Below are positions 44,975-51,911 of a stretch of 64,000 nucleotides of DNA, piece by piece. Under the pieces are notes generated by a model. That model had not been told where the DNA came from. It did no database searches and was given only the letters and a program-made list of their open reading frames with translations. Where the stretch lies: the NCBI RefSeq assembly GCF_000981585.1, contig NZ_LN831776.1, positions 1,379,001 through 1,443,000 on the forward strand, in the 5' to 3' direction. This DNA is from Paenibacillus riograndensis SBR5. GTDB lineage: Bacteria; Bacillota; Bacilli; Paenibacillales; Paenibacillaceae. The translations under genes were made by a program, and so were the position numbers. Within the stretch, counting starts at the first letter, position 1. The number at the start of each line of letters is the position of its first letter.

Positions 44975-45498
44975 TGATGGAATCGGAGCCGGTAAGGGAT
45001 CAGAGCACGGAGCTGGTGTTCCGCCTGATGAAGCTTGTAGATATTCCTGATATTCTGATTATTGAGCGGGAAGCCTTCACGATGCCTTGGACGGAGGAGG
45101 CCTTCCGCAACGAGCTGACCCACAATCATTTTGCCAAATATATGGTCATGGAGCTGCACGGGCGTATTATTGGCTATGCGGGGATGTGGGCCATTGTTGA
45201 TGAAGCCCATGTCACGAATATAGCGTTGCTTGAGGCGTACCGGGGACGCAAATGGGGCGAGAGACTGCTGGACGAGCTAATGAAGACGGCTGCTTTTTTG
45301 GGCATGAAGTCCATCACACTGGAGGTCCGGGTCTCGAATGAGGTCGCCCAGAATTTGTACCGCAAAAAAGGCTTCCGTCCGGCAGGCACCCGCAAAGGCT
45401 ATTACTCGGATAATCGCGAGGATGCGCTGATTATGTGGGCGGATCTGCCGGAATACGGGGAGCAAGGCATGATGGAAGGAAGCGTGGATCTGAAATGA
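44974..45498 (+). CDS. rimI: Ribosomal protein-alanine N-acetyltransferase
   Basis: A 174-residue GNAT acetyltransferase of the RimI family. The acetyl-CoA binding motif is in LEAYRGRKWGERLLDELMKT, and EVRVSNEVAQNLYRKKGFRPAG is typical of RimI. It acetylates the N-terminus of a ribosomal protein (S18 in E. coli). The start overlaps the tsaB stop (TAATG), and tsaD starts at its stop (ATGA). Position inside the t6A cluster matches B. subtilis ydiD. Confidence 0.92.
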   Translation: MMESEPVRDQSTELVFRLMKLVDIPDILIIEREAFTMPWTEEAFRNELTHNHFAKYMVMELHGRIIGYAGMWAIVDEAHVTNIALLEAYRGRKWGERLLDELMKTAAFLGMKSITLEVRVSNEVAQNLYRKKGFRPAGTRKGYYSDNREDALIMWADLPEYGEQGMMEGSVDLK

Positions 45499-46544
45499 AG
45501 ACCGAAACGGGTGAAGTTCAGCCTGTACTAATATTGGCAATCGAAACCAGCTGTGATGAAACTTCCGTAGCGGTGGTGAAGGACGGCTGTGAGGTGCTTT
45601 CGAACATGATCTCCAGCCAGATCGAAACCCATCGCGCGTTCGGCGGTGTTGTGCCTGAAGTGGCATCCCGCAAGCATGTAGAAGTGATTACACTGGTGAT
45701 AGAGGGGGCGCTGAAAGCGGCAGGCGTTCAGCCTGAACAGCTGACGGCCGTTGCGGTTACGCAGGGGCCCGGGCTCGTCGGAGCGCTGCTGGTCGGTGTT
45801 GTAGCTGCCAAAAGCCTGGCGCTTGCCTGGGGCAAGCCCCTGATTGGCACGCATCATATTGCCGGTCATATTTATGCCAACCGGCTGGTTAAGGAGCTGC
45901 AGTATCCCAACATGACGCTGGTTGTATCCGGCGGGCATACAGAGCTGGTCAGCATGGAACGGGAGGGCAAGTTCCGGATTATCGGCCGAACCCGCGATGA
46001 CGCTGTGGGCGAAGCCTATGACAAGGTAGCGCGGGCGCTCGGGTTCCCTTATCCGGGCGGCCCCCATGTGGACCGGCTGGCCCGCGAGGCGGAGGAAGCG
46101 GTGGCGCTTCCCCGCGTCTGGCTGGAGCCGGATTCCTATGATTTCAGCTTCAGCGGCCTGAAGTCGGCCGTGCTCAATGTGGTCAACCAGAGCAAGATGA
46201 AGGGCCTTGCGCCGGATGTGGCCGGAATAGCCCGCGGCTTCCAGGAGTCGGTTGTCGAGGTGCTGGTGGAGAAGGCGGTTCGTGCTGTAAAAGCCACCCA
46301 AGCCAAGCAGCTTCTGCTCAGCGGAGGCGTAGCCGCCAACAAGGGCCTGCGCGAGGCGCTGACCGCCCGCTGCGAGGCGGAGGGCATTGAGCTGATCATT
46401 CCGCCTCCGGTATTCTGCACCGACAATGCGGCCATGATCGGTGCGGCCGCTTACGTGAAATGGCGCCATGACGGCAGCACACCGCTGGATATGGTCGCTG
46501 ATCCGGGGTTCTCGCTGGAAAATTGGTCAGTGGAAACCTATTGA
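45495..46544 (+). CDS. tsaD: tRNA N6-adenosine threonylcarbamoyltransferase
   Basis: A 349-residue TsaD (Gcp/YdiE), which transfers the threonylcarbamoyl group to A37 of tRNA. AIETSCDETSVAVV, then SSQIETHRAFGGVVPEVASR and the iron-binding H-x-x-x-H in THHIAGHIY, plus LLLSGGVAANKGLRE, identify it. The ATG overlaps the rimI stop by four bases; a longer in-frame reading from 45435 lies in rimI. The stop codon overlaps the -35 of the leuA T-box promoter. Confidence 0.96.
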   Translation: MKTETGEVQPVLILAIETSCDETSVAVVKDGCEVLSNMISSQIETHRAFGGVVPEVASRKHVEVITLVIEGALKAAGVQPEQLTAVAVTQGPGLVGALLVGVVAAKSLALAWGKPLIGTHHIAGHIYANRLVKELQYPNMTLVVSGGHTELVSMEREGKFRIIGRTRDDAVGEAYDKVARALGFPYPGGPHVDRLAREAEEAVALPRVWLEPDSYDFSFSGLKSAVLNVVNQSKMKGLAPDVAGIARGFQESVVEVLVEKAVRAVKATQAKQLLLSGGVAANKGLREALTARCEAEGIELIIPPPVFCTDNAAMIGAAAYVKWRHDGSTPLDMVADPGFSLENWSVETY

Positions 46545-47613: not shown

Positions 47614-49170
47614 ATGATTATTCCGGTAAAGAAACGAATTCAGATTTTCGATACGACGCTGCGTGACGGCGAGCAGGCTCCCGGGGCCAGTCTTACTCCG
47701 GAACAAAAGATCATTCTGGCTTATAAGCTGGCCGAACTGGGCGTGGATGTGCTGGAGCCGGGGTTCCCGGTATCGAGCCCCGGGGATTTTGCTGCCGTGG
47801 AGACGATCTCCCGGAAGGTGCAGGGCGTGGAAATCTGCGGCTTTGCCCGTGCAGTCAGAGGGGATATTGATGCTGCGGTGCGGGCGACCCGGGATGCGGA
47901 GCGGCGGCGGCTTCATCTGTTCATTTCCTCCTCGGACATTCACCTGCGCCATCAGCTGCGCATGAGCCGGGCCGAGGTTGTAGCCGCCGCCCGGGAGATG
48001 ACGGCGTATGCGCGCCAATTCTGCGAGGTGGTGGAGTTCACCGCCATGGATGCCGCACGGACGGGCATCGATGACCTGATCGAAATGGTGGAGGCCGTCA
48101 TTGAGGAAGGCGCGACGATTATCAATCTGCCCGACACGGTGGGCTATGCGCTGCCGCAGGAATATGGCGAGATGTTCCGCCGGGTCCGGCAGGGGGCCAG
48201 AGGCGGCGATACCGTGAGCTATAGCGCTCACTGCCACAACGACCTGGGGCTTGCCGTGGCCAACAGTCTGGCTGCGATTGAAGGAGGGGCTACCCAGATT
48301 GAGGTGACAGTCAACGGCGTGGGGGAGCGCACCGGAAACTGTGCGCTGGAAGAGCTGGTCATGGCGCTGGAGACACGGGGGGATGCGCTTGGCGCGGAAA
48401 CCGGCATAGTGCTGGATAAGCTGTACGACACTTCGCGGATCATCAGCGGGGCCATGCATTTTCCGATTGCCTACAACAAACCGGTCGTCGGCAGAAATGC
48501 CTTCCAGCATGAATCGGGAATTCACCAGGACGGGCTGCTGAAGGACCGCAGCACCTATGAAATTATGGACCCCGAGCGGCTGGGCATTCCGCGCAGCATG
48601 ATTATTCTGGGCAAGCATTCCGGCCGCCATGCCCTGAAGGACCGGGCGGCGAAGTATGGCATTGCGCTCAGCCCCGGGGAGCTGGATGCATTGTATGAAT
48701 CCTTCAAGGAGACGGCTGACCGCCAGAAGGCAGTCAGCGACGATGAACTGCTGCGGATGGTCAGCACCACTACCGGTCAGGAAGCCAAGGTCTATGAGCT
48801 GGGCGAGGTCCAGGTACTGGCCGGCAGCGCACAGCGCCGGGTGGCCGCTGTTACGGTCCGCCACTTAAAAAGCGGCGAGGAAACTTCGCACACCAGCACC
48901 GGCAACGGGCCGCTGGAAGCGATCATAGCGGCGATCGGGCAAGGGATTGCCGAGGAGATTGCTTTTACGGGGCTGGAGCTGCATTCGCTGGGCAGCGGTG
49001 AGAACGCCCAGGCCGAGGCGGCGGTAATGGTGGAGTGGGAAGGAAATAAATTCAGGGGGACGGCTATCCATCAGGATATTGTAATGGCAGCGGGCATTGC
49101 TTATATCGCGGCCTGCAACTCGGCCCTGCTCTCCGCTGCTTCAGCTTCTCAGCCGTCATCGGCTGTATAG
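47614..49170 (+). CDS. leuA: 2-isopropylmalate synthase
   Basis: A 518-residue leucine pathway enzyme that condenses acetyl-CoA and 2-ketoisovalerate. The catalytic and metal-binding motifs are [40 protein letters not shown], and [40 protein letters not shown] follows, then the C-terminal LeuA dimer domain for leucine feedback (about 395-515). AGGAGGG precedes the ATG. Two leucine T-boxes control it. No other leu gene follows; it is monocistronic with its own terminator, and is inserted between tsaD and ydiF relative to B. subtilis. Confidence 0.95.
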
Positions 49171-49210
49171 TGCGCGAAGTGTAAATTTGCAAGGCGCTCA
49201 GGAACATCCG

Positions 49211-49258
49211 ATGGCCTGTTTTCTCCACATATTATGTGGGGGAACAGGCCATTTTTTA
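49211..49258 (+). terminator. Terminator after leuA
   Basis: ATGGCCTGTT pairs with AACAGGCCAT, with an inner CCACAT/ATGTGG helix, followed by TTTTTT. Confidence 0.88.
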
Positions 49259-49642
49259 TTGTATAGAAAATTATTCAATTTCAAGAAATGCGGAGATCCT
49301 GGAAGCCTCAGAGGATATAAGCAATGCAGGGGGGCTCCATCAGCCCATCAGCGGACTGAAGTGGACAGAGGGGACCCTATTTTGCCAAAAATCTTACTTT
49401 TTCAGTAGTTATGGACTCAGGAGTCGTTAAATCGTTCGATTGAGCCTGGAATCTTCTTTCAATAACGGCTTTCCAGTCCGCAACGGCTGCGGATCGATCG
49501 TGAAGGGAGCTCATCGTATCCGCAGAAGGACCCACACCATAATCATACGGCCTACAATTTGGGAGCGGTGGGGAATCCCTGCGGCCGTAAGTCCCGTGTT
49601 GTTATTTACCCGATAAAAAAGCAGAAGCGCCTTTTGTCAAGC
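49259..49642. other. Intergenic region between leuA terminator and DnaA-box cluster
   Basis: No gene seen. A stretch at about 49485-49510 (CGGATCGATCGTGAAG) resembles part of the 46-bp repeat at 10212. The remainder shows nothing recognisable. Confidence 0.4.
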
Positions 49643-49901
49643 TGTGGACAACGTTATCCACATATTCTGCCCGAATTGTGTAAAAACCGTGTAAAATCAG
49701 CAATAACGGCATTTTTTCAAAACCCGAAAAGGGCTGTTTACTAAGAGCCGTTTTCCTGTGATAATTGTGGATAATGTGGATAATTCGGTGGATAAAAAGT
49801 CCTTGACAAGGAAAAAGGCGATTTTACGCGTAAAAAAAGGCCCTATGGGCCTTTTTAAGCTGTGAGTTATACACGAAAACTGTGGATGGGGCTGTGGATA
49901 A
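49643..49901. promoter_or_regulatory. DnaA-box cluster
   Basis: Four perfect DnaA boxes TTATCCACA are present: 49654-49662 on the plus strand and 49766-49774, 49775-49783 (directly adjacent) and 49893-49901 on the minus strand. Near matches lie at 49643, 49787, 49867 and 49881. By chance about 0.5 perfect box is expected in a whole 64-kb window. No dnaA or dnaN is near, so this is an accessory DnaA-binding site rather than oriC. Confidence 0.8.
49834..49856. terminator. Symmetric hairpin inside the DnaA-box region
   Basis: AAAAAGGCCC and GGGCCTTTTT form a perfect 10-bp stem around TAT, with A- and T-runs on both sides. It can terminate transcription from either side, in particular that of the ABC-F gene. 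Confidence 0.75.
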
Positions 49902-49955
49902 CTATTTATGAACAAACCGGAAATTCTTAAAAAATAATTATTTAACGGATTTACA

Positions 49956-51911
49956 TTATTCGTCAGCAAGGTTTTCCCATTCGCTAAATAAATTTCCAAG
50001 CTGTTCTTTTTTGAGCTTTAGCTCACTTTCATGTTCTTGAAGTGCGACATAATCCTGAAAAACCTCGGGCCTGGTCATTTCATTCTCAATCCGGGCGATG
50101 TCTTCCTCCAGCACTGCGATATTCTCCTCGAGTTCGGAGATCCGCCGCTGGCGGTTGCGTTCCTCGCGTTTGGCCTGCTTTTCGGCTTCATAGGAGAGGG
50201 CCGCACCTTTTTCTGCCGCCGGCACTTCAGCTTCGGCATTCTTGGAGGCCTTGACAGAGGCTAGCTCCGCTTCCTCCAGGGCAATCGCCTCAAGCTCCCG
50301 CTTTTTTTCGATATAATCATCATAATTGCCCAGATATTGATCAATTCCGCCTGGATGAAGCTCCAGTACACGTTCGGCCATTTTGTTCAGGAAATAACGG
50401 TCATGGGAAATGAAGAGCAGGGTGCCTTCAAAATCAATCAGCGCCGATTCCAGCACCTCGCGGCTCATCAGATCCAGATGGTTGGTCGGCTCATCGAGAA
50501 TGAGCATGTTGGCGCCGCGCAGCATGAGCTTCGACAGCGAAACCCGGGCTTTCTCACCGCCGCTGAGCGCAGCAACCTTCTTCAGGACATCCTCGCCGCT
50601 GAACAGGAAATTGCCGAGAATCGTCCGGATTCGCGCCTCTTCCAGCATCGGATATTCACTCCACAGCTCCTCCAGCACTGTATTGCGCGGATTAAGCCGG
50701 GTCTGTTCCTGATCGTAGTAGGCGATTTTCACTTTGGTTCCCCAGTTCACGGTGCCGGTGGAAGGCTCCCGCGTACCGGTCAGGCACTGCAGCAGCGTGG
50801 ACTTGCCGATTCCGTTCGGGCCAATCAGGGCTGCCGTCTCACCCCGCCGCAGCTCAAAGGAGGCGTTCCGGAAGAGCGGCTCCGCTTTTTCGCTGAAGGC
50901 TACCGCGACATCCCGCACCTGCAGCACCTCTTTGCCGGACATGAAGTCCGGCTCGAAGGAGAAGCTGGCTTTTTTCAAATCACCCAGCGGCTTGTCGATA
51001 CGTTCCATCTTGTCCAGCGCCTTGCGCCGGCTCTGGGCCCGTTTGGTGGTGGAGGCACGCACGATATTGCGCTGCACGAAATCCTCCATCCGCGAAATCT
51101 CTTCCTGCTGCTTCTCGTACTGCTTCAGGCGGATCTCATATTCTGCGGCCTTCTGATCCACATAACGGCTGTAGTTGCCCGTGTACTTCCGGGACTGATG
51201 GCGTTCGATTTCGACGATTGTAGTCACCAGACGGTCAAGGAAGTAGCGGTCATGGGAGACGACCAGAATGCCGCCGGCATAGCTGCGCAGATAATCCTCC
51301 AGCCAGGTCAGCGTTTCAATGTCCAGATGGTTGGTCGGCTCATCCAGCATCAGCAGATCCGGAGCCTGCAGCAGAATGCGGGCCAGAGCCAGACGGGTTT
51401 TCTGGCCGCCGCTCAGCGTGGCAATCGGCGTCTCCGGCGGAAATTCGCCGAAGCCCATGCCGTGCAGAACGCTGCGGATCCGCGTATTCATCTCATAGCC
51501 GCCATGATCCTTGAACCAATCCGAACGTCTGGCGTAGCGCTCCAGCAGATCTTCATAACGCTTCGGGTCATCCGCCAGCCCAGGGTCGGCGATGTCTGCT
51601 TCGAGCTGCCGCAGCTCTGCTTCCGCTTCGATCAGCGGGCTGAATACGGCCAGCATTTCCTCTTGAATGGTCTTATCGGACTGCAGTCCGCTGTTCTGGG
51701 CCAGGTAACCAATGGTGGTTTCCTTGGATTTATGAATTTGCCCGCTGTCAAAGGACATCTCGCCGGCGAGAATCTGCAGGAAGGTCGACTTCCCGGCTCC
51801 ATTGACACCGACGAGGCCTACCCGTTCCTTCTCGTTCACCTGCAGGCTGATGCCGTCCAGCACGCTTTGTATTCCATATGACTTGGTAATTCCTGTTGCT
51901 TGAAGAAGCAT
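49956..51911 (-). CDS. ydiF: ABC-F family ATPase (YdiF type)
   Basis: A 651-residue soluble protein with two ABC domains and no membrane segment. Walker A motifs are VGVNGAGKSTFL and IGPNGIGKSTLL; signatures are LSGGQKTRLALARILL and LSGGEKARVSLSKLML; the linker between them (RNIVRASTTKRAQSRRKALD) is the ribosome-contacting P-site-like loop of ABC-F translation factors. The C-terminal extension is a coiled coil (EAEKQAKREERNRQRRISEL). It acts on ribosomes. It starts at ATG 51911 with GGAGGTTT upstream. In B. subtilis it also follows tsaD on the opposite strand. Confidence 0.94.
   Translation of the reverse strand: MLLQATGITKSYGIQSVLDGISLQVNEKERVGLVGVNGAGKSTFLQILAGEMSFDSGQIHKSKETTIGYLAQNSGLQSDKTIQEEMLAVFSPLIEAEAELRQLEADIADPGLADDPKRYEDLLERYARRSDWFKDHGGYEMNTRIRSVLHGMGFGEFPPETPIATLSGGQKTRLALARILLQAPDLLMLDEPTNHLDIETLTWLEDYLRSYAGGILVVSHDRYFLDRLVTTIVEIERHQSRKYTGNYSRYVDQKAAEYEIRLKQYEKQQEEISRMEDFVQRNIVRASTTKRAQSRRKALDKMERIDKPLGDLKKASFSFEPDFMSGKEVLQVRDVAVAFSEKAEPLFRNASFELRRGETAALIGPNGIGKSTLLQCLTGTREPSTGTVNWGTKVKIAYYDQEQTRLNPRNTVLEELWSEYPMLEEARIRTILGNFLFSGEDVLKKVAALSGGEKARVSLSKLMLRGANMLILDEPTNHLDLMSREVLESALIDFEGTLLFISHDRYFLNKMAERVLELHPGGIDQYLGNYDDYIEKKRELEAIALEEAELASVKASKNAEAEVPAAEKGAALSYEAEKQAKREERNRQRRISELEENIAVLEEDIARIENEMTRPEVFQDYVALQEHESELKLKKEQLGNLFSEWENLADE

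Follow-up and report, generated by a model that had tools for sequence, protein, structure and literature searches.

A conserved array of DnaA boxes between leuA and ydiF in Paenibacillus riograndensis SBR5, probable counterpart of the Bacillus subtilis gcp-ydiF cluster

Bacillus subtilis is said to be without Hda, SeqA, IHF and datA (PMC13220808), and how bacteria like it keep DnaA in check at the origin is still an unsettled matter. DnaA-box clusters outside oriC in B. subtilis are usually seen as DnaA sponges of weak individual effect. A dense group of DnaA boxes at positions 49643-49901 of a 64,000-nucleotide stretch of the Paenibacillus riograndensis SBR5 chromosome (the window) raises the question of what such a group does, and how far it is shared.

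The array and its surroundings

A first-pass annotation, made from the letters alone, had described four perfect and four near-matching boxes in 260 bp, two of them adjacent. A motif scan bore this out: 49643-49901 is filled by four perfect DnaA boxes and no fewer than four imperfect ones. Boxes were named A to I from the ydiF side. Perfect matches to TTATCCACA are A (49893..49901, minus strand), E (49775..49783, minus), F (49766..49774, minus, abutting E at a spacing of 9 bp) and H (49654..49662, plus, inverted). One-mismatch sites are D (49787..49795, minus, TTATCCACC), which opens a triplet with E, 12 bp away, and F, and I (49643..49651, minus, TTGTCCACA); leaving position 5 free adds C (49867..49875, plus, inverted, TTATACACG) and G (49677..49685, minus, TTTTACACA). 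These four are weak, as is B (49881..49889, minus, CCATCCACA), which has two mismatches. At 49832..49856 lies a short G+C stem with A and T tracts on both sides, terminator-like in form; it was not called by an intrinsic-terminator scan, which reported only another site, at 50012. The sequence CTTGACA (49635..49641, minus) follows box I after one base.

The earlier expectation of about 0.5 perfect box per window was fair. The genome (7.92 Mb, one contig) holds 116 perfect boxes against 48 copies of the reversed control motif, or 0.9 against 0.4 per 64 kb. The whole window has 25 sites with at most one mismatch, compared with a mean of 10.1 and a maximum of 20 in 100 shuffles. By a Poisson estimate, about 2e-7 groups of four perfect boxes in 248 bp would be expected genome-wide, and no second four-box group within 250 bp was found among the 100 perfect boxes listed of the 116. 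Exact TTATNCACA pairs no more than 30 bp apart occur in direct order at 13 places (this cluster and a dispersed repeat included), in convergent order at one (oriC) and in divergent order at one (upstream of tadA).

The gene order is tsaD (gcp; 45435..46544, plus; TIGR03723), leuA (47614..49170, plus; TIGR00973), the cluster, and ydiF (49956..51911, minus; NF000355, an ABC-F protein assigned as YdiF by place and similarity). Thus leuA ends at 49170 and the ydiF stop is at 49956, and the interval 49171-49955 is bounded by convergent 3' ends. This is the order given in the first-pass annotation, which described the B. subtilis neighbours with leuA inserted; in other families these neighbours flank the cluster with leuA absent. 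Also as annotated, the array is away from oriC with no initiation gene near: the contig starts with dnaA (base 1), 1.43 Mb or 18% of the chromosome away, and unlike an oriC the cluster adjoins neither dnaA nor dnaN. With several boxes within about 300 bp outside oriC, the array has the form of a B. subtilis-type DnaA-box cluster (DBC), one member of a kind already known.

Distance from dnaA was determined in 21 single-contig genomes and ranged from 0.075 to 0.247 of the chromosome (median 0.159; two positions approximate), with the cluster on one arm in 17 and on the other in 4. Two genomes of the genus carry it on the other arm, at almost equal distance (0.171 and 0.178). One genome without a cluster has tsaD at 0.255.

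Other DnaA boxes in this chromosome were also noted. The dispersed repeat is intergenic, with three DnaA-like boxes one after another at spacings of 11 and 12 bp. It has 10 copies (at most three mismatches; e.g. G000:C1 194755-194786, 1133627-1133658, 6718851-6718882 and 7528952-7528983, L145-L149), all reverse below half of the contig and all forward above it, which is one orientation relative to replication. One copy lies directly after a group II intron end, and among 30 genomes searched the repeat was found in this genome and its closest relative (G015, 9 copies) only. Upstream of tadA (NF008113) a second cluster (G000:C1:94282-94364, L144) packs five boxes, three of them exact TTATNCACA, into 83 bp and faces an opposite-strand ORF. 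Perfect boxes also show a strand bias along the replication arms. Among the 100 listed out of 116, the reverse strand has 53 of the 64 below 3.96 Mb and the forward strand 30 of the 36 above that point; a possible reason is codon use (GTG GAT AAR in genes transcribed with the fork).

Conservation in the genus and distribution by tsaD

YdiF was located in 40 genomes. Of the 25 genomes of the genus (this one included) 24 were readable, ydiF being cut in G023. The first-pass annotation had staked its proposal on enrichment in sister species, and in all 24 the array follows the ydiF stop with its boxes in unchanged order and orientation. In the genus alignment the gaps A-B (12 bp), B-C (14), D-E (12), E-F (9) and H-I (11) are invariant; G-H is 23 bp in 23 genomes and 22 in one, C-D is 79-81 bp, and F-G is 89-90 bp in 22 and 79 in two. 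Mean top-base share is 94% for box columns, 83% for the hairpin, which is kept in the alignment, and 61% for spacers. Box F is perfect in 22 of the 24 genomes, H in 23 and A in 12, with TTATNCACA at A in 23.

Weak boxes D, C and I stay weak across the 24 genomes. Box D reads TTATCCAC and then C, T or G in every one, the final base of C is never A, and position 3 of I is G in 23. More than one mismatch was seen in B in 11 genomes, making it the least certain box, and in C in two, A in one and G in one. CTTGACA is present in 24/24, with no strong enrichment in other families.

Distribution was assessed by a rule, set after the first loci had been viewed, that called a cluster where five or more boxes (position 5 free, up to one mismatch), two or more of them exact, fell in 300 bp. 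TsaD was located in 151 sampled Bacilli and the 1 kb after the tsaD stop evaluated in 130; the 21 left out comprised 3 of the genus, 16 from four crowded genera, 1 at a contig end and 1 without a listed match. Six relatives from the order were added, giving 136, and another, with an interval of 37 bp only, was skipped. Clusters no more than 1 kb past the tsaD stop were found in 68/130 Bacilli and 5/6 order relatives, that is in 73/136 genomes, related to each other as sampled, and in 30 of 44 families. Twenty permuted control motifs gave 0 clusters each in the Bacilli set. Under looser to stricter rules the real motif gave 82, 79, 75, 73 and 65, compared with control means of 0.5, 0.1, 0, 0 and 0.

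In eight more Paenibacillaceae among the 130 the cluster stands on the ydiF side, bringing the total to 76/130, and in seven of these eight leuA lies between tsaD and the cluster. The remaining 54/130 have no cluster by the rule within 1 kb of tsaD. All evaluated members were negative in 13 families (f14, f20, f25, f26, f28, f31, f34, f35, f36, f41, f42, f44 and f46), and family f6 has no positive at tsaD, the cluster being on the ydiF side instead. Order relatives judged at ydiF only had five boxes, two exact (G034), and four boxes, two exact (G037); the ydiF flanks of G025, G030, G032, G033 and G036, the ydiF side alone examined, had no cluster.

Positional conservation, as proposed in the first-pass annotation, stands in 76/130 Bacilli and in 10 of 20 genomes of other classes, but the constant neighbour outside the Paenibacillaceae is the tsaD 3' end and not ydiF. 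In many Bacilli 2-4 kb of other sequence separates ydiF from the cluster, and since the cluster remains at tsaD, tsaD is the anchor. Among 80 Bacillaceae loci, tsaD and ydiF are less than 1.5 kb apart in 70. These 70 intervals hold 604 boxes (282 exact) in 28.6 kb, and the sequence outside them 815 (70 exact) in 722 kb, an 18.7-fold difference in density for all boxes and 102-fold for exact ones. The best 300-bp window reaches at least five boxes inside the interval in 67/70 and outside it in 1/70. Separately, in 42 of 79 Bacillaceae contigs the sequence breaks off 3.0-3.9 kb from ydiF, on the far side of tsaD, as would be expected of an assembly-breaking repeat upstream of the tsaD operon.

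Outside Bacilli, in the phylum's other classes, TsaD was located in 59 genomes, of which 20 were taken with preference for good matches and long contigs. Ten satisfied the rule and ten did not; 40 control motifs gave 0/800. Boxes in G236 and G237 start 694 and 366 bp beyond tsaD, past an open frame. In the class of G244, 8 genomes were readable, two of them among the 20; 7 satisfied the rule and the eighth had 8 boxes, 1 exact. The next gene in the other-class genomes, judged by eye from translations, varies (lgt-like, radical-SAM-like, LytR-CpsA-Psr-like and others), with none dnaA-like. As it is absent near tsaD in 54/130 Bacilli and 10/20 other-class genomes, the cluster is not essential everywhere.

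Shared polarity and spacing

Spacings between boxes were compared over 31 families (77 genomes) with 60 null runs. Same-strand spacings of 9 and 12 bp reached 22.9 and 21.1 family equivalents (null maxima 12.7 and 10.5), same-strand 21 bp reached 15.3 (null maximum 9.0) and opposed pairs at 23 bp 8.7 (3.9). The 11-bp same-strand spacing was not enriched in these families (5.7 against a null mean of 7.5). In the 31 families 200 boxes lie along the ydiF strand and 54 against it.

All triplets with spacings of 9-25 bp were scanned in 170 flanks outside the genus (seven genomes give two flanks), allowing at most two mismatches in the first box and one in the others. The core triplet of boxes D, E and F, 12 then 9 bp, was found in 50/170 flanks; the runner-up, 9 then 12 bp, was found in 19, and the median of spacings with hits was 2. 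On the opposite strand the 12-9 triplet was found 0 times in these flanks. By group, it occurred in 29/137 Bacilli flanks and so is not universal, in 14/26 other-class flanks, 8 of the 14 being from one class, and in 7/7 Paenibacillaceae or order loci read from ydiF. The first box was imperfect in 49/50 hits and, when held to one mismatch, perfect in 1/33; the second box was exact (position 5 free) in 27/50 and the third in 39/50. The first-box defect depends on lineage, being TTATCAACA or TTATTAACA in 12/14 other-class hits and TTATCCACT or TTATCCACC in 6/7 Paenibacillaceae or order loci. No such triplet was found in the dnaA region of P. riograndensis or in the tadA cluster. A search of 42 families for a partner-protein motif common to them gave only A/T tracts and weak 7-base words.

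Probable function and alternatives

The first-pass annotation had named a B. subtilis cluster between gcp and ydiF, and correctly so: Table 1 of PMC4447404 lists a region "downstream of gcp; downstream of ydiF", among the best DnaA-bound regions in vitro, with 10 sites. Its apparent Kd is 0.15 μM for ATP-DnaA and 0.33 μM for ADP-DnaA, and 16-fold more of its DNA was recovered with ATP-DnaA at 55 nM. Deletion of six clusters outside oriC in B. subtilis led to early initiation (PMC5295017, PMC13220808), which was partly relieved by one cluster (PMC5295017). The B. subtilis and P. riograndensis clusters are alike in their tsaD and ydiF neighbours, convergent 3' ends and about ten boxes, and differ in the leuA gene that separates tsaD from the cluster here. 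Further features of the genus array are the D-E-F triplet (12, 9), H and I as an inverted pair, and CTTGACA; a relative in the B. subtilis group (L166) has same-strand spacings of 43, 9 and 22 bp instead. The B. subtilis genome is about 4.2 Mb. At that size, the binding summit given in PMC4447404 is at 0.15 of the chromosome from oriC, similar to 0.18 here.

From these likenesses the element is, with reasonable confidence, the Paenibacillaceae counterpart of the B. subtilis gcp-ydiF cluster, an ordered DnaA-binding array outside oriC that probably restrains initiation. High-affinity binding, preference for ATP-DnaA and early initiation upon six-cluster deletion are known from B. subtilis only; for P. 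riograndensis we infer DnaA binding, loading of strong boxes first and an effect on timing. In the proposed model, strong boxes A, E, F and H would load DnaA first, and weak boxes B, C, D, G and I would be occupied only at high levels of ATP-DnaA, by way of contacts that depend on the constant spacing. Because the site is only 18% of the chromosome from oriC it would be copied early, its dosage would double soon after initiation, and the doubled site would draw DnaA from the new origins.

A role as a DnaA reservoir would be in keeping with the usual view of these clusters. The constancy of the spacing suggests that the array is not just a sponge; plain titration needs no such constancy. Simple titration is also spoken against by the finding, noted in PMC13220808, that about 10-fold DnaA overproduction gave no over-initiation. 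Since position, polarity, spacing and imperfect boxes are kept while spacers diverge, the comparison of genomes points to selection acting on a DnaA-DNA assembly. In the simplest account the site would work as in B. subtilis, retaining DnaA and holding initiation back, and its constant geometry suggests that the assembly itself matters.

A defined assembly could also act as datA or DARS does in Escherichia coli, its geometry making bound DnaA hydrolyse or exchange nucleotide and so shifting the ratio of ATP-DnaA to ADP-DnaA. Order, polarity and spacing are kept, weak boxes too, as for an assembly of defined shape, and according to PMC4585315 datA is spacing-sensitive and the relative distances of datA and the DARS sites from oriC are conserved. 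The array resembles datA as a set of intergenic DnaA boxes outside oriC at a conserved distance, and DARS1 and DARS2 as a DnaA-box array, likewise with a conserved distance from oriC. However, datA requires IHF, and no second motif common to families was found here; IHF and Hda are said to be missing from B. subtilis (PMC13220808). DARS1 and DARS2 reactivate DnaA and favour initiation, whereas the B. subtilis clusters are negative in effect as a group (PMC5295017). No sequence relation to datA is claimed, and this mode of action is judged unlikely, though it is the best of the alternatives. Since no partner motif common to the families was found, DnaA alone may suffice without a partner protein.

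That the array lets DnaA control transcription of a gene next to it, in the manner of B. subtilis sda, is quite improbable. Some B. subtilis clusters do affect promoters (PMC4447404), the next gene in other classes often points away from the cluster, and a conserved TTGACA stands by box I. Against this, the array is bordered by 3' ends, as it is in most Bacilli whose tsaD and ydiF adjoin, the other-class next gene varies, and no -10 element consistently follows CTTGACA or TTGACA in the 24 genus genomes, so that TTGACA was rejected as a promoter. Because the array is flanked by 3' ends or by genes that vary, control of a local promoter is unlikely and was rejected, as was a partner motif common to families. 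Other candidates tried in the interval and rejected were an antisense RNA (two sub-threshold Rfam matches only) and small ORFs (no Pfam match for the three tested).

That the site is a cryptic origin of replication or the relic of one, a reading also rejected, is more improbable still. Many boxes do lie beside an AT-rich stretch (27% G+C, 49900-49999); however, that stretch is poorly conserved in the genus, and dnaA is 1.43 Mb off. The organism's own oriC, whose boxes share the consensus of the array, has dnaA and dnaN adjacent and no D-E-F triplet. Chance or base composition can be set aside as negligible on the controls, as single such sites are common in AT-rich DNA but permuted motifs give no cluster and the boxes are kept while spacers diverge.

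The B. subtilis genes ywlC and trmE encode TsaC and MnmE. Several DnaA clusters lie by tRNA-modification genes, at tsaD, trmE and ywlC in B. subtilis (PMC4447404) and at tadA here, which may be coincidence. The retention of the tsaD cluster by one gene over several classes suggests that it is the old one among the known clusters, whereas in P. riograndensis the mnmE-jag gap (L077, G000:C1:7916277-7916386; genes named by eye), where B. subtilis has its trmE cluster, holds 0 boxes.

Titles and abstracts searched gave no published report of the cluster outside B. subtilis, the key Okumura 2012 study being beyond the reach of the search; within that search, neither its spread over Bacilli and other classes nor the triplet that lineages share nor the conservation of the weak box was found in print. 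A bolder reading, offered tentatively and at rather less than even confidence, is of an ancient, phylum-wide DnaA-control element at the tsaD 3' end, with a weak-strong-strong triplet (12 then 9 bp), the first box kept imperfect and polarity constant relative to tsaD from Paenibacillaceae to other classes. Such an element would be a Gram-positive counterpart of datA and DARS, an ordered ATP-DnaA sensor and not a sponge, vertically inherited while neighbour genes changed.

Anchoring by one gene over several classes, with fixed polarity and spacing and imperfect boxes, is hard to fit to a plain sponge, and these conserved features are the ones to alter in a test. Matching rows of boxes by the same gene in distant members of the phylum suggest an old and widely shared control point of replication.
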